Origin: Rheinheimera hassiensis
GTDB lineage: Bacteria; Pseudomonadota; Gammaproteobacteria; Enterobacterales; Alteromonadaceae
DNA: 64,000 bases
Direction: 5' to 3'
NCBI RefSeq assembly: GCF_022436675.1
Contig: NZ_JAKUJZ010000001.1
Coordinates: 310,001 to 374,000 of the forward strand
How positions within the stretch are numbered: position 1 is the stretch's first letter; every line of letters begins with the position of its first letter. A program made the translations under genes and the position numbers. Under the pieces are notes generated by a model, which worked only from the letters and a program-made list of their open reading frames with translations, did not search any database and had not been told where the DNA came from. Below are positions 9,337 to 27,690 of this stretch, one piece after another.

Positions 9337-11229
9337 CTACAGTTTAAAACGGCCTACTTCCTGCTGCAGTGATGCGGCAAGGTTTGCCAGTTCCTGTGCC
9401 TGTGCTTTGGCAGCCTGAGCCTCGGTTGATAAACTTTCAGATACTGTGCGGATAGATTCCGTGTTGCGGTTAATTTCACTGGTAACCGATGTTTGCTCTT
9501 CAGCTGCGGTGGCTATTTGAATGGCCATACCTGAAATCTCGTGAATAGCCTGGCTGATTTTCACCAAACTCTCACTGGCTGAGTGGGCGTCACTTACACT
9601 GGTTTCTGCCATTTGGTGGCTTTGCGTCATCGACTTCACCGCTTTGGCAGCAGTTTGTTGCAGGGTTTCAATCATGGTTTGAATTTCCTGCGTTGATGAG
9701 TGCGTGCGCTGCGACAGCACCCGTACTTCATCGGCTACCACGGCAAAGCCCCGCCCTTGATCACCTGCACGAGCAGCTTCAATAGCTGCGTTTAATGCCA
9801 GTAAGTTGGTTTGCTCGGCAATGCCACTGATGGTGGATAAAATGCTGCTGATTTTTTGCGAATGGGCGTTTAATTCACCAATAATGGTACTGGCTGTTTC
9901 TACTTCATGAGCCAGATCGCGAATAGAAGTTTGGCTTTTTGTTACTTGCTGTTTGCCGTGTTCAGACAAGCCTACCGCATCTTGTGCCGTTTGCGCCGTG
10001 TGATCGGCATTGCCGGCAATTTCCTCAGTGGCGGCAGCCATTTCAGTAACAGCAGTGGCCACCATGGTGACTTCATCTTGTTGTACTTCAATGCGCTGGC
10101 TGGTTTGCATGGCAGAGTTGCTGCTGCTTTTTGCCTGAATTTCCAATTGGCCGGCAATATCATGCATACGTGAAATCATGCCGTGTAAGCGCGAAACAAA
10201 ACGGTTAAAACCAGAGGCAAGTATGCCAATTTCATCGTGCTGGCTGGCCGTTTTAATGCTTACGGTTAGGTCGCCTTCACCTTCGGCAATATTGTTAAGC
10301 GCCTGGGCAACGCGCTCTAAATCGCGGAACTGTAGTTTGAAAATAGCGATAAGAATAATACCGAACAATATTATTAAAGCACCGCCTGCGAATGACATAA
10401 TCCAGGCCAGACCGGTGGATTGCGCCATAATCTCCTGCTTACCCATAACAAAAATTAAAGCCCAATCGGTATGTGGAATAGCAGTGGTGTAAACCAATTT
10501 GGTGGCACCATCCAACTTGTGCTCTGTCAGCGTTGCGGTGCCCATAGTTTGGGCTAACCACGGCAGCGTGAAGCTGCTGTCTATGTCGGTAATTTGCTTT
10601 TCATTCAGTGCTTTGTCGGGATGGCTGATAATCAGACCAGTTTTTTGCACCATGATGCCATAACCGTTGCCTGGTACTTTCAGCTTTAAAACAGCATCGG
10701 TTAGCTGTTCAATAGTTAGGTTGGCCGCAACGACACCATGCAGCCGGCCGGAAACCATCACCGGCTCGGCAATGGTAACAACTTGTTTTTTTAGCGATGA
10801 ACTAATGTAAGGCGCGGTAATCGCAATGGTGCCTGCGGCTTTTGCATCCAGATACCAGGGCCGCGTGCGCGGGTCCAGATTGGCGTTGTCCAGTGCTGCG
10901 TCCTGGTACATCATTACCCCGGCTTCGCTACCAAAAAAGGTAGAACCAAACCGGGCTGCATTTTGAGTTTGCAGTAAATGCAGCCGCACATTTACTTCAG
11001 GGTCCGCTTCAATGGTTGATTTTAAACTGCTGATGTTACTTTTTTTGTCCTCCATCCACTGCCCTACACCACCGGCAAAGGTAATGGCCAGTTGGTCTAT
11101 TTTTTCCTGGGTGTCTGTCAAGGCATGGTGGCGGATAAAGTAAGTAGTAAGGCTAACCAGTGTAATCACGGTAACTAAAACGGCGGTCAGGCTGCTAATT
11201 AACAGCCGCATTTTTAGCGTAGAGTGCAT
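9337..11229 (-). CDS. Methyl-accepting chemotaxis protein (dCache sensor)
   Basis: A 630-aa inner-membrane chemoreceptor that passes periplasmic ligand signals to CheA/CheW. Seen in order: first transmembrane helix (about 8-30), a periplasmic double-Cache domain with the typical [11 protein letters not shown] and [21 protein letters not shown] blocks, second transmembrane helix, HAMP region, and a long coiled-coil signalling domain with the invariant hairpin tip [18 protein letters not shown]. No pentapeptide CheR tether is present at the C-terminus (EVGRFKL). The start at 11229 is chosen because AAGGA lies 8 bases upstream; a longer frame exists but lacks a ribosome site. The ligand is unknown; dCache receptors often sense amino acids or carboxylates. 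Confidence 0.95.
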
Positions 11230-19558: not shown

Positions 19559-19607
19559 TATACTGATCACAGCGACAATGCTTATTGCAGCTATCAAGGT
19601 GGGATTT

Positions 19608-19877
19608 ATGGCGAAGCGGGTTATACCAACTGATAAACCGAATATACAACAGCCGGTAACATTGGCATCGTTAAGTGAGTTAGTGCGATATAAACGCACG
19701 TCTCTGGGCGTATCTATTGCTGACGCGGCACTCTTATTTGGACTATCCAAACAGACATATCAGAATATTGAAAAAGGCGCGGGTAATGTGCGGGCAGAGA
19801 ATTTATTTACCGTGCTGGCGTTATGGGGCATAGAACTACAGGTAAAAGCAGCGGAAGACAATAATGACTGGCTCTGA
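19608..19877 (+). CDS. hipB: HipB-type antitoxin, helix-turn-helix
   Basis: An 89-aa DNA-binding antitoxin. LSELVRYKRTSLGVSIADAALLFGLSKQTYQNIEKG is an XRE/HipB helix-turn-helix (about residues 22-58), followed by VRAENLFTVLALWGIELQV. Preceded by AGGTGG, the ATG at 19608 is preferred over an ATG ten codons upstream. It overlaps hipA by 14 bases. HipB neutralises HipA and represses the operon at the palindromes upstream. Confidence 0.87.
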   Translation: MAKRVIPTDKPNIQQPVTLASLSELVRYKRTSLGVSIADAALLFGLSKQTYQNIEKGAGNVRAENLFTVLALWGIELQVKAAEDNNDWL

Positions 19878-21189
19878 TCACCTGCCCAAACTAAACGTCT
19901 ATGCCAATTCGGGTCTGGTTGGTGAGCTGACATTCATGTCACCAGGCAGGTGCCAGTTTCATTATGCAGCCAACTGGTTAGAGCAAGGCTTTGCCATTTC
20001 GCCACATATAGGTTTTCAGCAAACGGTATCATCTGAAACTGTGATCAACTTCCTGAAAAACCTGCTCCCTGAAGGCGAGGCTTTAAGTAGTTTACTGAGT
20101 TACGAGCGCTTATCCAAAGATAATGTGCTTGCCATACTTAAAGCCATTGGGGCTGAAACCACCGGCGCTCTGTCGTTTCATAACAGCGAGCCAGCAGATG
20201 CCGTCAGCAAACTTCGGCCCATTACGGACGCAGAACTAGCTGAGCGCCTTAGCAGTCAGGACACGAGTCAATTGGTGTACTGGGACGGTAAGTTCCGGCT
20301 ATCCGTTGCCGGTGTGCAAAACAAGCTAAATGTATATGTTGATGAAAACCAGCAGTTATCGCTGGCTGATGGTAACTACTCCAGCACGCATATTGTAAAA
20401 TTCTCTGCTGCCAACTATCGCAGTATCGTCGTAAATGAATTGTTTTGCATGCGGCTGGCTGCAGCAGTCGGCATTAATGTAGCCGAAGTACAACAAAGGC
20501 ATTTTGGTGGTCACCATGCTCTGCTGGTTACCCGATTTGACCGCAAACGTTCTGAACATAGCGTCAGCAAACATCATATGATTGACGCTTGCCAGGCATT
20601 AGATTTGCCTCCTGAGTATAAGTACGAGCGCCAGTTTGGCGATGATCGCGACGTTGCCAATATAAGAGATGGCGTAAGCCTGAATAAGCTGATTTCATTT
20701 GCCCGCCATACTGCTGTGCCATTGTTAACCATCCAAAAAATGCTCGACTGGTTACTGTTTAATCTGATTATTGGCAACAGTGATGCTCACGGTAAAAACA
20801 TCAGCTTTTTTGTTGGCCGCAGCGGCATTAGCCTTAGCCCTTTTTATGATTTAGTTTCCATACTGCATGAAGCGCAACAGCACCCTCAACTTAATACTAA
20901 TTTGGCAATGGCCGTTGGCGACAACTTCGATATCAATACTATCACCGCATACGACTTACTGACATTTTCAGACAAGGTTGGCCTCAAACCTGCATTGATT
21001 AAGCGTCGTCTGGACTTACTGGCTATACGCTGCCAGAATCTGGCCAACCGGCTGGATTTTAGTACAGACCAACTTACTGCTGAGCAGCAAGCTCATATAC
21101 AAAACTTAACCCAGCTCACTTTGCAACGTTGTGAATACTTTCTACAACAAAGCCGTCAATTTAATACAGTTTTACGAGAGGCTTTTTGA
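19864..21189 (+). CDS. hipA: HipA-family serine/threonine kinase toxin
   Basis: A 441-aa full-length HipA. The N-terminal HipA_N domain (KLNVYANSGLVGELTF, FLKNLLPEGEAL) is followed by the kinase core. Catalytic residues are intact: GNSDAHGKN with D307, SPFYDLVS with metal-binding D329, and STHIVKF with the ATP lysine. SVAGVQNKL (S147) corresponds to the autophosphorylated serine loop of E. coli HipA. In E. coli HipA phosphorylates glutamyl-tRNA synthetase and causes persistence; the same target is likely but not shown here. It is next to, but transcribed toward, the SMC defence operon. Confidence 0.93.
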   Translation: MTGSDHLPKLNVYANSGLVGELTFMSPGRCQFHYAANWLEQGFAISPHIGFQQTVSSETVINFLKNLLPEGEALSSLLSYERLSKDNVLAILKAIGAETTGALSFHNSEPADAVSKLRPITDAELAERLSSQDTSQLVYWDGKFRLSVAGVQNKLNVYVDENQQLSLADGNYSSTHIVKFSAANYRSIVVNELFCMRLAAAVGINVAEVQQRHFGGHHALLVTRFDRKRSEHSVSKHHMIDACQALDLPPEYKYERQFGDDRDVANIRDGVSLNKLISFARHTAVPLLTIQKMLDWLLFNLIIGNSDAHGKNISFFVGRSGISLSPFYDLVSILHEAQQHPQLNTNLAMAVGDNFDINTITAYDLLTFSDKVGLKPALIKRRLDLLAIRCQNLANRLDFSTDQLTAEQQAHIQNLTQLTLQRCEYFLQQSRQFNTVLREAF

Positions 21190-21294: not shown

Positions 21295-22164
21295 TCAGGC
21301 CTTTAAATTTATCACTGCTAGTCTCATCCCCTGCATATTCTGCTGCCTAAGCCCCTGTAACTGCTGGCACAGCAACTGCTGGTAAGGCTGAAATTCGCTG
21401 GTGACCTTCTGAGCTTTGATTCCGGCGATAAAACTAAGTTGTTTGTCTGGCAGCATGGCAGGGCTGGCGTGTTGTTGTAGTGTGGCGAAATCTGGCAGCA
21501 GCATGGCGCTGTAGCCTTCATTTAAGGCGATGCTTACGCCTTTGGCATCGAAATCACCAAAGTATAATGCCGGTTTATTTAAGCCTGACCATGCCATTTT
21601 CAGCGCTTTACAGCCGCTGCTGTACTGGCTGTCACCGCGATAGATAATCAGCGGTTGCTGATACGCCAGTTGCAGCGTAAAGGCATCAAGTTGGTAAAAA
21701 CAATCCAGGTTTTCTACCACCAGCAGCATATCAAATTGTGCCAGTGGTAATTGCTGCCAATCGATATCAATACACTCTGCCGCCAGGCCCAGACAACTAT
21801 CGACCGGCGTATGTAGTTTTAGTAAAACCCGTTGCTGGCGTGGCTTTAAACCAATGCTTTTTAGCTCTTGCTGGCTGCGCGCCGCATTGTCTAATCTGCG
21901 GTGTTGATGTGGCGCATCCAGATAGCAGGCTTGTTGAAGCTGGCGCTGCACACGGGCAATATCATTTAGCAGTGCCAGGTTAAAGCTAAACTGCGGCAGT
22001 TTAAGGCTATTGCCGGGCACTAATTCATGCTCAATACACCAGCTCAGTACCTGCTGCACCGCTTTAGCACTGGTTTTTACCCGCTCGCTGCCGCGGGCAT
22101 TTAGCCGCTGTTGCAGTTGTTGCAAGTAGCGCAGTGTTTGTGCGCTCAGCGGCGGGTAGCTCAT
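21295..22164 (-). CDS. jetD: JetD-like TOPRIM nuclease of a Wadjet-type system
   Basis: A 289-aa protein, last gene of the SMC operon. The C-terminal half has a TOPRIM fold signature: MLLVVENLDCFYQL with E151, and ALYFGDFDAKGVSIA with D204 and D206, spaced as in topoisomerase VI/JetD/MksG nucleases. The N-terminal half (about 1-120) is a helical arm that probably docks on the SMC complex. In Wadjet systems JetD cleaves circular plasmid DNA recognised by the JetABC motor. It is shorter than many described JetD proteins. The start overlaps the stop of the kleisin-like gene (TGATG). The family assignment is from the TOPRIM motifs plus synteny. Confidence 0.75.
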   Translation of the reverse strand: MSYPPLSAQTLRYLQQLQQRLNARGSERVKTSAKAVQQVLSWCIEHELVPGNSLKLPQFSFNLALLNDIARVQRQLQQACYLDAPHQHRRLDNAARSQQELKSIGLKPRQQRVLLKLHTPVDSCLGLAAECIDIDWQQLPLAQFDMLLVVENLDCFYQLDAFTLQLAYQQPLIIYRGDSQYSSGCKALKMAWSGLNKPALYFGDFDAKGVSIALNEGYSAMLLPDFATLQQHASPAMLPDKQLSFIAGIKAQKVTSEFQPYQQLLCQQLQGLRQQNMQGMRLAVINLKA

Positions 22165-23405
22165 CAGGCGGCCTGCAGGCTCAGGCTGATATCGCGAATA
22201 AGCAGCAAGCTGTTAACGGCACTGGCGGGCACTTCGTCGCGTTTAATGGCAAACATATGCTTTTCATCCTGCGGCAGCGCCTGATACTCGGCAATAATTT
22301 GATACAGCCAGATTTCGCTGTCCCAGCTTAGCTGGTGCTCAGCCAGATAATCCAGCGCACTTAACGGCCCGGCTTTATCAATCACCCGCAGATAGAAATT
22401 TTCCACGTCAGTTTTCAGCGCTTGCTGGCGGGCGGCAATTTCTTCATCTTCCATTACGGCGGCAAAACTGGCGCTTTGCTGATCCGGCAGGTTTATGGCG
22501 GCGGATCTTGGCAGCGCCCGCACCAGCTCGGCCAAGATCTGGCGTTCGCTGGCTTTATCCAGCGCAATCGCCGCTTGCGGCTGTATTGCTGCAGCCTGAT
22601 TAAATAACACGGGCACATCAGAACGATTGGGATAATCGGCCGGCTGATACTTCGGGTGCTGGCGCAAAAATGCTGCCATATTGGTGATCAGCATGGAACG
22701 CGCCTGCTGCTGGCGGAAGCGGGCTAACAGCTCGACCAGGCGTTTTTGCACTTCCAGCAGGCTGCTGTGATGCGAGCTAAGCTGGTTTTGCAGCTGGCTT
22801 ACCAGCAACTTACGTAGTTGGTTATTACCTTCGGATAACTCAATCAGCTCGTTAAAATCCAGTAGCACCAAGCCATCGAGTAAGCGGCGTAATTGCTTTT
22901 GCGCCCGTTCGTTCTCACGGATTTTATCGTCCAGGCTGGCAACAAAACCAAAATCGCTGTTAAGCCGGTGCCATAAGCTGTCTATGGCTTCTTCAAACTG
23001 GCCGCTTAAGTCGTGTACATGCTCTGTTAAGCGTTGCAGTTGCAGCTCGGCCACACTGTAATCGCCTTTGTACTGTGCATCGCGGTAAGCCTGCACCCGG
23101 TTGCGGATTTGCTCCAGTTTTTCTGCCACGTCGGCGTTGATCTGGCGGCGGTTTTCATCGGCCACCATACTGGCAATCAGCTCGCTTACCAGTGGCCTTA
23201 GCGCCAGCGGTTGTTGCTCATCCGGGCGCCACAAAATACGCGCCGCAATCAGCTTTTTCAGCGCGCTTTCGCTAAAGGCGGCTTCATCAATAAAACCGTC
23301 CAGATAACCCTGCATCAGTGCTTTATGGTGCTTGCCCAGCAGCGCCAGCCGTTCGGCGCCAACGTTAAACAGGTTAGAGGCCGCGCCAGTATCCAGCGGC
23401 GCCAT
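22164..23405 (-). CDS. jetA: JetA/MksF-like kleisin subunit
   Basis: A 413-aa mostly helical cytoplasmic protein. An N-terminal winged-helix-like region (about 20-95: LIAARILWRPDEQQPLALRPLVSELI) is followed by long helices with coiled-coil character (QIRNRVQAYRDAQYK, LDDKIRENERAQKQLRRLLDGL) and a C-terminal small domain (about 330-413). This plan fits a MukF/MksF/JetA kleisin bridging the SMC heads. The sequence alone does not prove it; position between the KITE-like gene and jetD in a fully overlapping operon is the main support. Stop and start codons overlap both neighbours (TAATG, TGATG). Confidence 0.6.
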   Translation of the reverse strand: MAPLDTGAASNLFNVGAERLALLGKHHKALMQGYLDGFIDEAAFSESALKKLIAARILWRPDEQQPLALRPLVSELIASMVADENRRQINADVAEKLEQIRNRVQAYRDAQYKGDYSVAELQLQRLTEHVHDLSGQFEEAIDSLWHRLNSDFGFVASLDDKIRENERAQKQLRRLLDGLVLLDFNELIELSEGNNQLRKLLVSQLQNQLSSHHSSLLEVQKRLVELLARFRQQQARSMLITNMAAFLRQHPKYQPADYPNRSDVPVLFNQAAAIQPQAAIALDKASERQILAELVRALPRSAAINLPDQQSASFAAVMEDEEIAARQQALKTDVENFYLRVIDKAGPLSALDYLAEHQLSWDSEIWLYQIIAEYQALPQDEKHMFAIKRDEVPASAVNSLLLIRDISLSLQAA

Positions 23406-24025
23406 TACAACATCGCCTGCTGGGTTGGAGTGTCATCTACCGGCAGATGCTCTTCATCACGGATAAACCGAATAACATCAATTAAATAGTCAATTTTACC
23501 GGTAACAATATAGTACTGCCGATCGCTGTGCGGTTGCAGCAGGTAGCCGTGCTCTTTTAAGCGGCGGAAAATCAGCTTTACCTGGTTGTCCAGCGCATCG
23601 CTCTGGCTGTTAAAAAAGCGGTCGCTGGCCAGTTGATTTAAGCGCTGGCGCAGGCTTTGGTTATCCTCGGTGCGCAGCACAAATTCCTGCAGCTTAATAG
23701 TATCTCCGGCGGTTAAAGCACTGTCGCGGCCCAGGGTTTCCTGCACCAGTTGCAGCCATTCCAGCAGCGGCAACAGCGATTGCACAGTTAAGGCAAACTG
23801 GCCGCTTAGTTGCTCGCGCGCGGCTTTATTCAGCTCGTGATACGCCAGAAAATACACGCTGTTATCGTCATTGCTAACTAAACGACGGTTTAACGGCCGC
23901 AGATAGTGGTTAATATCCTGCTGCGTTTGTTCAAGGCTTAAATGGCGGAAGGCATCTTCGTCGCTAACCTGGCAGATAAAATCACCGGCCAGCAGCCGTT
24001 CCAGTAAAGGACCATGTTGTAACAT
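23405..24025 (-). CDS. jetB: JetB/MksE-like KITE subunit
   Basis: A 206-aa protein, probably a tandem winged-helix KITE subunit. LLERLLAGDFICQVSDEDAFRHL at the N-terminus and LIFRRLKEHGYLLQPHSDRQYYIVTGKIDYLIDVIRFI at the C-terminus look like winged-helix units with a beta wing; the size matches MksE/JetB. KITE dimers bind the kleisin and DNA. The TAATG junctions on both sides give tight stoichiometric coupling with the SMC and kleisin genes. The call depends on synteny with the clear SMC-like gene upstream. Confidence 0.6.
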   Translation of the reverse strand: MLQHGPLLERLLAGDFICQVSDEDAFRHLSLEQTQQDINHYLRPLNRRLVSNDDNSVYFLAYHELNKAAREQLSGQFALTVQSLLPLLEWLQLVQETLGRDSALTAGDTIKLQEFVLRTEDNQSLRQRLNQLASDRFFNSQSDALDNQVKLIFRRLKEHGYLLQPHSDRQYYIVTGKIDYLIDVIRFIRDEEHLPVDDTPTQQAML

Positions 24026-27000
24026 TAGCTGGCCTCCTGTTGCCGCTGTGCCAGCCGCTCAGCTAACCGGCTGGTTTTAGGTTGAATACGTTTTAACTGG
24101 CGTTTGCTTGGGTCTTGCTGGCTGGGTTCAATTAAATAGCGGTGGCTAAACAGCATCAGCACGTCAGACTCGGGGTTAGGAAAGGCACCGACAATAATAA
24201 TGTTATTAGCACTGCAGGCAGCAAACAGCTTTTCTACGTTGTGATAGGCCAGGGTACCAATTTCATCTATCGGCCAGTGGATGGCTACGTTGGCCTCACC
24301 ACGCAATAAGCGGGTAAAGGCCAGCAGGTACTTACATAAAATAAGATAAGCCATACCGTGGCTGGACGATTCCAGCAACTGACGATCGTTTTTAATCACC
24401 AGCTCAGAGCCGCCTTCGCTTAAATGCAGCTCAAGCCGCAGCAAGGATTCAATAGTATATTGCTCATCGGCACGCAGCAGCTCGACTACATCGGCCAGCG
24501 CATTAAGATACTGCTCGGAAGGCAGCGCTTTACCCGAGGCACCCCAGTCGTCGTACAGTTTGGCAAAGTGTTTCAATGGCTGCCAAAAGCCCAGCTCGTC
24601 AATGGTTGATAAAATACGCACTTCGGATTTGCTGATGCCTTCTAGCACCAAATCATCGGCCACCGCTTCGCTTAAACGGCGGCTTTGCAGGGCAATACGG
24701 CGGTTAATGTCGCTGAATACGGTAAAGAACTTTTTCAGATCGCCGCCAATGTTTTCGCCCATTTCCAGCAGTTGCTGTTGCTGGTCCTGTAAGATCCGTA
24801 GCAAGTCGGCCAGAATAGGCAGTTGCTGGCGTTTACCAGCGTAGTCGGGCAGTTTGCGTTTTTCGTGCTCCAGCCGGTCAAGAAACTCGCTGCCGGCGTC
24901 TTTACTCAGCGTGGTTTCAAACTGTTCCAGTTGTAATTTTAACTGCTGATCCAGCTTGCTGCGCTGCTCCAGCGCTTCATTGCTGCGGGCTAAGCGTTCA
25001 ACTAAATCGGCTGAGGCCGTAAGCGCAGCCGGTGTAACCTCAGCTAAATGCAGCTCGGCCAGTTTTAGCAGCAACGGTTTTAACTGGCTTAGCCAGACAT
25101 CGGCCTGCTGCATTTTTTCCTGCCACTGGCGTTTTTGTTCGTCCAGCCGTTTCTGGCTGGCGGCAAAATCAGCCTTTAACTGGCCAAGCAGTTGGCTTAA
25201 TTCACGTTGTTGTTGTTTTAATTCGGTTTCTTTGCCCAGCAATTGTGGCCGCAGTTGCTGCCAGTCCAGCTGCATAAAGCGTTGCCACTGTGTCAGTTCG
25301 TCCTGGCGGCTTTCGGTGGCTTTAATATCAGTTTTCAGTTGCTCCTGGCGCTGCTTCAGCTCGACCAGCCGTTTTGGATCTATACCCTTGGCCGATAGCT
25401 CTTCGTTAAATGCTTGCTGTAATTCACTCAGTTGCTGTTTGTTGTCGTCGCGCTTGCGCTCCAGCTGGCGTTCCAGCTCGTCCAGTTGTTCATCAAATAC
25501 CTGCAGTTCCGCCTGCCAGTCGGCTTTTAGCTCAATTTTCTGTGTTTGATGATCAGTTTTAAGCGCCTGTAAATCCTGTTGTTGCTGCTGTTGCAGTTTT
25601 TCCAGTTGCTGTTGCTGCTCTGCCAGTTCGGCACGCGCACTGGCCTGCCGCTGTTTAACCAGCTCGCGCTGGGCGGCTTCCAGCCGGTTACGCGCATCAC
25701 GGGCGTAGTCAATATTTTGCTCGGCCTGGGTATATTGCCACTGCGCCTGCTCCAGCTGAGCCTGCACCAGCTCGGCTTGCTGATGGCTGTCTTTCAGCGT
25801 TTTTTCGGCGGCCGTTTTATTGGCTGTTGCCTGTTCCAGTTGTTGTTCGGCACTGTGTATACGGTGACGGATGGCGGCTTCATCCTGGGCGTAGTCGGGC
25901 GTGTCTATTGCCGCCAGCTCAAGTTGCAGGCCATACAAGCTGTCGCTCAGCTCTGACAAATGGGGCTGTAAATCCTGCCGTTCTAATAAACGCTCGTCCA
26001 GCACCTTACCCAGCTTTTGCTCCCAGCCGCTGTAATGCAAACGCAGATAATGGCGTAAACTGCCCTGCTCCGGCGTAAGCTGGCGGTGTAGTTGTTGCAG
26101 CTGTTGCTCGGCCAGATGCCGCGCTTTACTGGCGTGCTCCAATTGCTTATCGGCCTGATCGCGCTGTTGCCGCGCTTGCTGATATTGCTGCTGCAGTTGC
26201 TGTACCTGCCGCGCCTGCTGCTGGGCCTGCTGCTGGGTTTGCTCCAGCCTGAGCTCGGCGCTGCGCAATTCATCATGCTCGGCGTCGGTTAACGCTGAAT
26301 GGCTCAGCTGGCTTTGTAGTACCGCAATGCCATTGCTGCACTGGGTTAATTGCTCGGCAAAGCGCTGTTGTTGTTGCTGTAAACGCTGCGAAAAGGCGTT
26401 TTCGAGCGCCGAGAGTTTAGTGTCTTGCTGCTCGCGGGTGCTGTCTTTTTGCTGTTGCAGTTGTTTAGCTTTACCCCGCTGTTGCTCACTTAAACGGTTA
26501 AAAGCCTCAAGCAGTTTGGCTTTACGCTGCTCTAACTGGCGCTCCATATCGCCGTGCTGCTCTACCATCAGTTGGTATTGCTCCAGCAATTCCTGCAGGG
26601 TGTCGCGCCACAATGGCAAGGCATCAGTATCGCGCTGCAGCTTGGTCATATCGCGGCTTTCAAAGCTATCGTACTGTTGTTGCAGCTGATCTAACCGCGC
26701 GCTGGTTTCGGTTAAGTCTGCTTCAGCTTTGCTCAGTTTGCTGTTTTGCTCCATCTGCTGCTGTTCAAACTGCTGCTTTAACTGTTGCAGCTGGCCGCGC
26801 AATAGCTGCACCTGTTGCTCGGCATCGGCCTTTTGCAGTTTTTGTTGCTGCTCGTCCTGCTGCAACAATGGCAATAGTGCTGCCAGTTGGGCTTCGGCAC
26901 CGTCCAGTTGTAATGCCAGTTGTTTTAAGCGTTCAAAATCCTGCTGCAGTTTGTCCAGCCGCATCGACTGGCGCATTTGCTGGATCCACTCGCGCGCCTT

Positions 27001-27690
27001 GGTGTTTTTCACCTTGGTAGTAGGCAGAGTTACGCCGTCTTCTTCAAAAATAGCCGCTAACATCGCTTTTAGCGTATCCATTTTGCCTTCTTTGGCGTGC
27101 ACAGCGCTAACCAGCTTTTCAATATGGCGCAGCTTATGGCCACTGCTGACCAAACTAAAGCTGGCTGCTAAGCGGCGTAATTTTACGCTATCGGCGTTGT
27201 TGCCACGCAGCGCGGCAGCGTCGTTCTGAATAATGCTGCGGTATTCACTGGTCGCACTGATTTTATGCGATACCTGCACATCAGCCAGGCTGCGCATAGC
27301 GCCAGCCCAGTCATTGTAGCTGTGGCCTTTTACACCCTCTGCGGTGTGTTGCAAATAATGATCGCTGTGGTAAGGCGCATTGATAAAGCGGTAATCAACA
27401 CCACCATCATTTTTACGCGTTAATACCACCTGGCAAATATCGCCGTTCTCGCGCTGATATTCATACACGATATAACTATTAGAAAACGGCAGATAAAATT
27501 CATCAAACTTTTTGCGGGTTTTCGGCACCACGCGGTTAGGCTGCTCGCCAAAAAATACCGGCACCAGGCGTTGTAAGGTGGTTTTACCCGAGGCATTGGT
27601 ACCGCAGATATTGGTGTGTTCATCCAGTTGTAGTTCCACCACACCAGGCAGGTGGGTGTGAATAAGCACAATACGAAGTAATTGAGACAT
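24025..27690 (-). CDS. jetC: JetC/MksB-like SMC ATPase with glutamine-rich coiled coil
   Basis: A 1221-aa SMC-like ATPase, first gene of the operon. Head halves are at both ends: Walker A CGTNASGKTTL at 29-39, and near the C-terminus an ABC-signature-like LESSSHGMAYLILCKYLL and Walker B VAIHWPIDEIGTLAYHN. Between about 230 and 960 runs a coiled coil extraordinarily rich in glutamine and leucine, with an interruption near the middle (LRLHYSGWEQKLGKVLDERLL) that may be the hinge. This is the architecture of MukB/MksB/JetC motors that extrude DNA loops. A DUF3584-like affiliation is likely. It has no SbcC zinc hook CxxC and no SbcD partner. Upstream 113 bases separate it from the DUF418 gene. 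Confidence 0.85.
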   Translation of the reverse strand: MSQLLRIVLIHTHLPGVVELQLDEHTNICGTNASGKTTLQRLVPVFFGEQPNRVVPKTRKKFDEFYLPFSNSYIVYEYQRENGDICQVVLTRKNDGGVDYRFINAPYHSDHYLQHTAEGVKGHSYNDWAGAMRSLADVQVSHKISATSEYRSIIQNDAAALRGNNADSVKLRRLAASFSLVSSGHKLRHIEKLVSAVHAKEGKMDTLKAMLAAIFEEDGVTLPTTKVKNTKAREWIQQMRQSMRLDKLQQDFERLKQLALQLDGAEAQLAALLPLLQQDEQQQKLQKADAEQQVQLLRGQLQQLKQQFEQQQMEQNSKLSKAEADLTETSARLDQLQQQYDSFESRDMTKLQRDTDALPLWRDTLQELLEQYQLMVEQHGDMERQLEQRKAKLLEAFNRLSEQQRGKAKQLQQQKDSTREQQDTKLSALENAFSQRLQQQQQRFAEQLTQCSNGIAVLQSQLSHSALTDAEHDELRSAELRLEQTQQQAQQQARQVQQLQQQYQQARQQRDQADKQLEHASKARHLAEQQLQQLHRQLTPEQGSLRHYLRLHYSGWEQKLGKVLDERLLERQDLQPHLSELSDSLYGLQLELAAIDTPDYAQDEAAIRHRIHSAEQQLEQATANKTAAEKTLKDSHQQAELVQAQLEQAQWQYTQAEQNIDYARDARNRLEAAQRELVKQRQASARAELAEQQQQLEKLQQQQQQDLQALKTDHQTQKIELKADWQAELQVFDEQLDELERQLERKRDDNKQQLSELQQAFNEELSAKGIDPKRLVELKQRQEQLKTDIKATESRQDELTQWQRFMQLDWQQLRPQLLGKETELKQQQRELSQLLGQLKADFAASQKRLDEQKRQWQEKMQQADVWLSQLKPLLLKLAELHLAEVTPAALTASADLVERLARSNEALEQRSKLDQQLKLQLEQFETTLSKDAGSEFLDRLEHEKRKLPDYAGKRQQLPILADLLRILQDQQQQLLEMGENIGGDLKKFFTVFSDINRRIALQSRRLSEAVADDLVLEGISKSEVRILSTIDELGFWQPLKHFAKLYDDWGASGKALPSEQYLNALADVVELLRADEQYTIESLLRLELHLSEGGSELVIKNDRQLLESSSHGMAYLILCKYLLAFTRLLRGEANVAIHWPIDEIGTLAYHNVEKLFAACSANNIIIVGAFPNPESDVLMLFSHRYLIEPSQQDPSKRQLKRIQPKTSRLAERLAQRQQEAS

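Follow-up and report, generated by a model that had tools for sequence, protein, structure and literature searches.

A four-gene operon of Rheinheimera hassiensis may serve immunity against plasmids, the handling of the chromosome, or both. The operon lies on the minus strand, at positions 27690-21295, of a stretch of 64,000 nucleotides (positions 310,001 to 374,000 of contig NZ_JAKUJZ010000001.1; hereafter the window) from a genome of 4.7 Mb, and it encodes, in the order of transcription, an SMC ATPase, a KITE subunit, a probable kleisin and a TOPRIM nuclease. The operon is real and belongs by its composition to the Wadjet/MksBEFG group; chance is excluded because the SMC, the nuclease and the KITE protein match the Pfam families DUF3584 (E-value 2.4e-246), DUF7281 (3.6e-18) and MksE (7.2e-07), respectively. 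The reading that we consider likely is that the operon encodes a loop extruder of the MksBEF kind whose task does not depend on the nuclease, the JetD-like nuclease being a detachable anti-plasmid module that is intact here.

Recurrent absence of the nuclease from a conserved operon

The distribution of the operon was determined in 31 genomes of the genus; here as in the other samples, one genome per species was used and many were drafts. The SMC was above the Pfam cut-off in 28 genomes, the KITE protein was found in the same 28, and three genomes were without the operon. The SMC, KITE and kleisin genes were complete in all 28 loci compared (27 fetched and the window). The nuclease family was found in 20 of the 31 genomes, and an intact nuclease gene stood beside the operon at 20 of the 28 loci, including the window; the author of the original prediction, made from the sequence of the window alone, had no means of seeing that it is optional for members of the genus. 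Close relatives whose SMC is 97-98% identical to that of the window differ in the nuclease, the rest of the operon being conserved. Rheinheimera sp. EpRS3 has an intact nuclease, 90% identical to that of the window, and R. pacifica DSM 17616 naturally has none. Five of the eight loci without the nuclease keep differing remnants of it (residues 72-127 in L043, 1-24 in L044, 1-27 in L050, 270-287 in L036, and 1-73 in L049, together with a further piece in a different frame), and three keep none (L034, L038 and L051). These eight loci fall in seven clades of a tree of the three core genes and, by eye, in six on a five-gene tree of the scpA locus, some branches being weakly supported; two of them lie in G012 and G019, genomes of which one consists of a single contig and the other of two. 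A strong classical JetD_C match was found in one genome of the 31 (1.3e-46; G001:C1:134412-134930, L154), which also has the operon. ScpA was present in 31/31 genomes, so that Smc-ScpAB stands alongside the operon throughout the genus, and MukB was above the cut-off in none of the 31 (one weak match lay below it).

Selection was estimated from pairwise Nei-Gojobori ratios of nonsynonymous to synonymous substitution rates (dN/dS) for pairs with a dS of 0.05-1.2; the pair sets differ by gene, and L057 was left out of the medians. The median dN/dS was 0.045 for the SMC (49 pairs), 0.056 for KITE (186 pairs), 0.062 for the kleisin (74 pairs) and 0.181 for the nuclease (18 pairs): where present, the nuclease is still constrained, under weaker selection than the core. 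Comparison of the window with four close relatives without the nuclease gave dN/dS values of 0.022-0.035, 0.016-0.027 and 0.022-0.031 for the SMC, KITE and kleisin genes, respectively. Over four close pairs in which both members lack the nuclease, the values for these three genes were 0.008-0.033, so that in the pairs compared the core genes are not decaying once the nuclease is lost. A docking site for the nuclease was sought by comparing nuclease-positive and nuclease-negative operons; no convincing site emerged from this comparison, which is confounded by clade.

Both states of the operon were also found outside the genus. The family sample contained the SMC in 71 of 147 genomes and ScpA in 139; 70 of the 71 also have ScpA (lists compared by eye), the exception being G161. 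Five of the 20 family loci that were opened have the nuclease, four by profile and one, L117, recognised by sequence and matched to DUF7281. L117 is the operon of G161, whose genus, g38, was without ScpA in 4/4 sampled genomes. In the order sample, the SMC was found in 91 of 247 genomes, the nuclease family above the cut-off in 55, and both in 53, adjacency of the nuclease to the operon being seen only in the loci opened. We opened 36 of the 38 genomes with the SMC only: 34 had no nuclease after an intact kleisin, one had a diverged nuclease (L300) and one was cut off (L301). L306, counted among the 34, has one short distant match (29.6% identity, 9.7e-05), which is possibly a nuclease remnant. 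L301, where the kleisin lies at a contig end, and G187 and G358 (nuclease-negative, partial SMC match) were left unjudged in the counts.

Six further genera contained both states: the counts with and without the nuclease were 5 and 6 in g53, 10 and 7 in g57, 1 and 6 in g60, 1 and 1 in g95, 8 and 1 in g67, and 16 and 1 in g62. We then compared the genes that follow the kleisin at eight nuclease-less loci with those that follow the nuclease at six positive loci. Identities were 86-98% in g53, 80-99% in g95, 90-99.6% (L276) and 60-93% (L280) in g60, and 83-85% for one gene in g57; the flanks are thus largely shared while the nuclease alone is missing. In L282 two stretches of the nuclease survive, residues 250-271 (64% identity) and 274-300 (96%).

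The nuclease state was mapped on a midpoint-rooted tree of 119 operons, 62 with and 57 without the nuclease, which omits L137, L153 and L301 and includes 18 of the 80 named loci described below, picked by hand; this and all other trees are single FastTree runs. Loci L136-L153 had been chosen by the nuclease family and were kept out of frequencies. Nuclease presence follows the tree yet changes often, because equal-cost parsimony required at least 25 changes when 300 label shuffles gave a mean of 40 and a minimum of 30. A count allowing losses only gave 33, or 30, 27 and 26 when weak nodes were collapsed at a support of 0.7, 0.9 and 0.95, respectively, and one nuclease-less clade holds 17 operons. 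Among 19-taxon trees of nuclease-bearing operons, the core and scpA-locus trees had 11 of 16 splits in common, the nuclease and scpA-locus trees 8, and the core and nuclease trees 7, which hints at exchange of the nuclease without proving it, although the core is not fully congruent with the scpA-locus tree either. The nuclease gene lies five open reading frames (ORFs) away from the kleisin in L137 (4382-9067), and in L260 it is found at 10010, about 3 kb from the kleisin.

Not every lineage loses the nuclease often. The best 80 of 130 named genome loci obtained with the KITE protein include 25 from the genus sample, and 78 of the 80 have room for a gene after the kleisin (L211 and L249 do not). 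A nuclease ORF of at least 230 amino acids was present at 66 of these 78 loci, none at 8, fragments at 3 and a displaced cut copy at 1; those outside the genus that keep the nuclease include Halomonas, Vreelandella and Ectothiorhodospira. In L267 (Halomonas olivaria TYRC17) and L263 the SMC is read in several pieces, as is the nuclease of L267, through either sequencing error or real decay.

A search with the KITE protein also retrieved relatives on plasmids, in 17 records at 22-30% identity, and one relative at 38% in a phage record. The four mobile copies opened, from Rhodoferax, Vibrio parahaemolyticus, an Enterobacter IncC plasmid and Dolichospermum phage Dfl-JY45, all have four genes in the same order. 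A tblastn search of the plasmid collection with the nuclease protein gave no match, though diverged copies sit beside the KITE matches there. In the conjugative IncC plasmid pVIM-Exn692 (L273, 136915-149466), an IS256-like transposase gene splits the SMC gene and a WYL-domain gene lies upstream. The Dolichospermum copy (L274, 83610-98209) is in a record deposited as a phage genome.

Identity of the proteins and surroundings of the operon

The coordinates of the four genes and of the adjoining hipBA pair are given in Table 1.

Table 1. Genes of the operon and the adjoining hipBA pair, in positions of the window
Feature	Position	Strand	Remarks
SMC ATPase (MksB/JetC-like), DUF3584	24025..27690	minus	1221 aa; Walker A GTNASGKT, signature SSSHG, Walker B WPIDEI; PF12128 match
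KITE subunit (MksE/JetB-like)	23405..24025	minus	206 aa; Pfam MksE above cut-off
Probable kleisin (MksF/MukF/JetA-like)	22164..23405	minus	413 aa; AlphaFold2 model, Foldseek matches, operon position
TOPRIM nuclease (MksG/JetD-like), DUF7281 + JetD_C	21295..22164	minus	289 aa; E151, D204, D206
hipB	19578-19877	plus	adjoins the operon, convergent with it
hipA	19864-21189	plus	adjoins the operon, convergent with it

The original prediction of a Wadjet/Mks-like SMC operon held as regards the family of the system. The one-base overlaps that it described between the genes were read in the DNA at all three junctions (TAATG at 24025, TAATG at 23405 and TGATG at 22164). The match of the SMC to DUF3584 (PF12128) covers profile positions 1-1190 of 1191, and the Walker A, signature and Walker B motifs, of which the two Walker motifs had been predicted, were found in 28/28 genus loci, with the Walker A variant GSNASGKT in L057. 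NCBIfam gave SMC- and Rad50-type matches far below the cut-off for the SMC and nothing of note for the other three proteins. The coiled coil was indeed rich in glutamine, residues 241-1030 containing 19.5% in the window as compared with 5.3-19.1% in 17 other members of the SMC alignment; it is not unusual for the genus, however, since the same region contains 14.7-21.6% across the 28 genus loci and the value of the window is usual among them.

The KITE call was borne out by Pfam MksE (PF21980), at 30.1 bits for a cut-off of 27, with a match to DUF4194 (1.2e-05) below the cut-off. The kleisin call became a probable one. The protein matched no Pfam family (best chance-level match 0.043), no Pfam family was common to more than 2 of 31 kleisin members, and no PADLOC family was matched by the protein of the window or by any of the 31 members. 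Its AlphaFold2 model is of moderate confidence (predicted local distance difference test, pLDDT, 80; predicted template modelling score, pTM, 0.42) and consists of a helical N-terminal part, long helices, a low-confidence linker, and C-terminal helices with two strands. The best seven Foldseek matches (4.7e-03 to 2.4e-02, none reaching 0.001) were chains of MukF, MukE-MukF, MukBEF and Wadjet entries, led by MukF 1t98_A and the Wadjet entry 8as8_E (4.7e-03 each), and the eighth was a designed protein. The matched MukF, MukBEF and Wadjet chains are in part presumed to be kleisins. Operon position, model layout and these matches suggest that the 413-residue protein is probably a kleisin. Neither Pfam nor PADLOC has a model that it matches, and tools for annotating defence systems may therefore overlook the lineage.

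The nuclease matched JetD_C (1.3e-05, 25.1 bits for a cut-off of 22) as well as DUF7281, both above the cut-off. The predicted catalytic residues E151, D204 and D206 were invariant in 27/27 aligned relatives. Its model was confident (pLDDT 92, pTM 0.75) and had seven Foldseek matches at E <= 0.001, all to TopoVI-A, MksG and JetD (6.2e-05 for TopoVI-A, 1.8e-04 for MksG 8b7f and 7.2e-04 for JetD 7til). Neither outcome that the original prediction had set as its refutation, a structure without TOPRIM here or a lack of similarity of the 206- and 413-residue proteins to KITE or kleisin folds, was encountered. The query-normalised template modelling scores of these matches were low (0.26-0.41), possibly because of differing domain placement. 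Searches of PDB sequences were weak throughout: the nuclease profile reached Spo11 at 0.0064, TopoVI-A at 0.065 and MksG at 0.5, KITE had three matches at 0.29-0.92, the SMC had none at 1e-06 and the kleisin none at 1. Two features that had been taken to mark a divergent subtype were rejected. The order SMC-KITE-kleisin-nuclease is usual in the lineage and was the same wherever the genes of relatives were identified, including three plasmids and the phage record, and a nuclease of 289 residues is not shortened, the range across 27 members being 274-310.

No window protein strongly matched the catalogued Wadjet types I-III represented by the PADLOC Jet models. These models, used without given cut-offs, were run on the kleisin, nuclease and KITE members and on the window proteins. 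The best values in the window were weak: 2.9e-04 for the SMC (JetC3), 5.3e-05 for KITE (JetB1) and 4e-07 for the nuclease (JetD3). The best nuclease value among 27 members was 6.8e-09, and 3 of 24 KITE members matched per model.

The hipBA pair stands where it had been reported, but the defence island proposed around it was not supported, as we found neither a variable site nor, among the ten flanking proteins and HipBA that were scanned with PADLOC, an enrichment in defence genes. None of the ten had a match at E <= 0.001, and HipA matched the candidate defence family PDC-M03A (9.1e-07). The pair adjoins the operon at 3/28 loci (the window, L042 and L048). At 25 of the 27 other genus loci, one or more of the genes that lie upstream of the operon in the window (glycine-transporter-like, DUF418 or porin/tct) are likewise found upstream, the exceptions being L053 and L057. 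The HipA of L042 is 93% identical to that of the window and its SMC only 84%, which hints that hipBA was transferred separately, to the same site.

Possible functions of the complex

If the complex works as the characterised members of the group do, its SMC, kleisin and KITE subunits would form an ATP-driven DNA loop extruder. The TOPRIM protein would be the DNA-cutting effector and, to judge from type I Wadjet, would cleave closed circular DNA reeled in by the extruder. We propose that the extruder is kept for a job independent of the nuclease. Most likely it helps to organise or segregate the chromosome alongside Smc-ScpAB, as has been reported for Pseudomonas aeruginosa MksBEF. The nuclease, encoded last in the operon, would be an anti-plasmid module that the complex can do without; it is less strongly selected, has often been deleted and may have been regained by recombination. 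Distribution and selection indicate that the core persists in working form where the nuclease is gone, and a nuclease-independent function would be the simplest cause. Because the nuclease of the window is intact, the complex there probably still cuts plasmids. A broader form of the proposal, which may equally well be right or wrong, holds that the extruder is a stable chromosomal machine and the nuclease a plug-in that is switched off about as fast as species diverge, and that recombination at the end of the operon perhaps restores; the step from Wadjet to a MukBEF-like condensin would then have been taken many times in parallel, and one complex would do both jobs in nuclease-positive species.

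Several observations weigh against an extruder with a nuclease-independent job. The operon is not essential, being absent from 3/31 genus genomes and its SMC present in only 71/147 family genomes, and Smc-ScpAB always stands alongside it in the genus. The core shares only 11/16 splits with the scpA-locus tree, so its vertical descent is not cleanly shown. Among the best 80 of 130 named loci, 48 of the 53 informative ones outside the genus sample keep the nuclease, as expected for a defence system. Purifying selection shows a function but not which one, and the kleisin has a dN/dS of 0.224 in one nuclease-positive pair (L054-L056). A comparison of plasmid burden with nuclease state was uninformative, Rep_3 being found in 1/31 genus genomes, that of the window, which is nuclease-positive. 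This Rep_3-type match lies at G000:C1:40382-40717 (4.3e-08).

A rival idea is that the whole lineage of complexes still serves immunity, three-gene complexes restricting plasmids without cutting them (by compaction, silencing or missegregation) or borrowing a nuclease from elsewhere in the genome. Four-gene relatives on plasmids and in one phage record, the retention of the nuclease in many lineages and the absence of the whole operon from three genus genomes would all suit this idea. It is nevertheless rather unlikely in our view, given the common chromosomal neighbourhood in the genus, the strong constraint after nuclease loss and the lack of any match to DUF7281 or JetD_C (E <= 0.001) in the eight genus genomes that kept the core but not the nuclease, nucleases of other families not having been searched for. 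Less likely still is a gain of the nuclease by some lineages rather than its loss by others. Remnants persist in five of the eight nuclease-less genus loci and in L282, the deepest branches of the midpoint-rooted tree carry the nuclease (though L136-L153 were picked by it), the four opened plasmid and phage-record copies carry it, and it usually occupies the same position at the end of the operon. A gain would explain why the nuclease is a minority state in one genus (1/7 in g60), why most nuclease-less loci outside the genus have no clear remnant, and why the nuclease tree partly disagrees with the core tree.

An ordinary Wadjet acquired horizontally in a defence island beside hipBA appears very improbable. 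The adjoining hipBA pair, the HipA match to PDC-M03A and the plasmid-borne four-gene relatives, with KITE proteins 22-30% identical, are what such an origin would leave, whereas the SMC is present in 28/31 genus genomes, upstream neighbours are common to the window and 25/27 other loci, the ten other flanking proteins are without a PADLOC match and hipBA adjoins only 3/28 loci. We give least credence of all to the view that operons of three genes are vestiges of a defence system on the way to extinction. Loss or fragmentation of the nuclease would fit such decay, but none of the eight nuclease-less genus loci has a shortened SMC, KITE or kleisin gene, dN/dS is 0.008-0.033 over the four close pairs without the nuclease, and one nuclease-less clade holds 17 operons.

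With its core intact in most sampled members of the genus and its nuclease lost again and again, the operon is a natural series for studying how immune machinery becomes, or also serves as, an organiser of the chromosome. This bears on how one SMC complex can destroy foreign circles when it must also fold the chromosome of its host, and on whether nuclease loss turned immune complexes into MukBEF and MksBEF. The close relatives that differ in the nuclease are ready pairs of environmental bacteria in which to probe the function of the extruder without it.

Comparison with known systems

The closest known systems are MksBEFG (Corynebacterium glutamicum, Mycobacterium smegmatis and Pseudomonas) and type I Wadjet, JetABCD, which like the window combine an SMC, a KITE protein, a kleisin and a TopoVI-A-like TOPRIM nuclease in one operon. 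The fold of the window nuclease matches those of MksG and JetD, although it has 289 residues as compared with 365-368 in the structures matched, and the gene order is B-E-F-G in the window as opposed to the mksFEBG order described as conserved in a passage of PMC10123090. The PADLOC Jet models, weak for three of the window proteins and matching nothing in the kleisin, set it apart further. DUF3584 and DUF7281 are curated Pfam families of the SMC and the nuclease rather than a described system. For characterised members, passages of PMC10123090 and PMC10586767 describe loop extrusion by the SMC-kleisin-KITE core and activation of the nuclease on closed circles.

Absence of the nuclease as such is already known: MukBEF and several other members of the Wadjet group are without MksG/JetD according to a passage of PMC7617805, and a section of the review PMC10586767 describes P. 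aeruginosa MksBEF as lacking JetD and proposes its origin from an immune complex by nuclease loss. Among the open-licence papers listed by our searches, we found no report of repeated loss within one genus. MukBEF of Escherichia coli belongs to the same SMC group and has no nuclease, and MukF is among the best fold matches of the probable kleisin, but the MukB model was above the cut-off in 0/31 genus genomes. P. aeruginosa MksBEF, for which part of PMC7485682 reports roles in chromosome layout and segregation, coexists with Smc-ScpAB as the operon of the genus does, and the nuclease-less relatives of the window appear to resemble it; unlike P. aeruginosa MksBEF, the lineage of the window has three-gene and four-gene forms within one genus.

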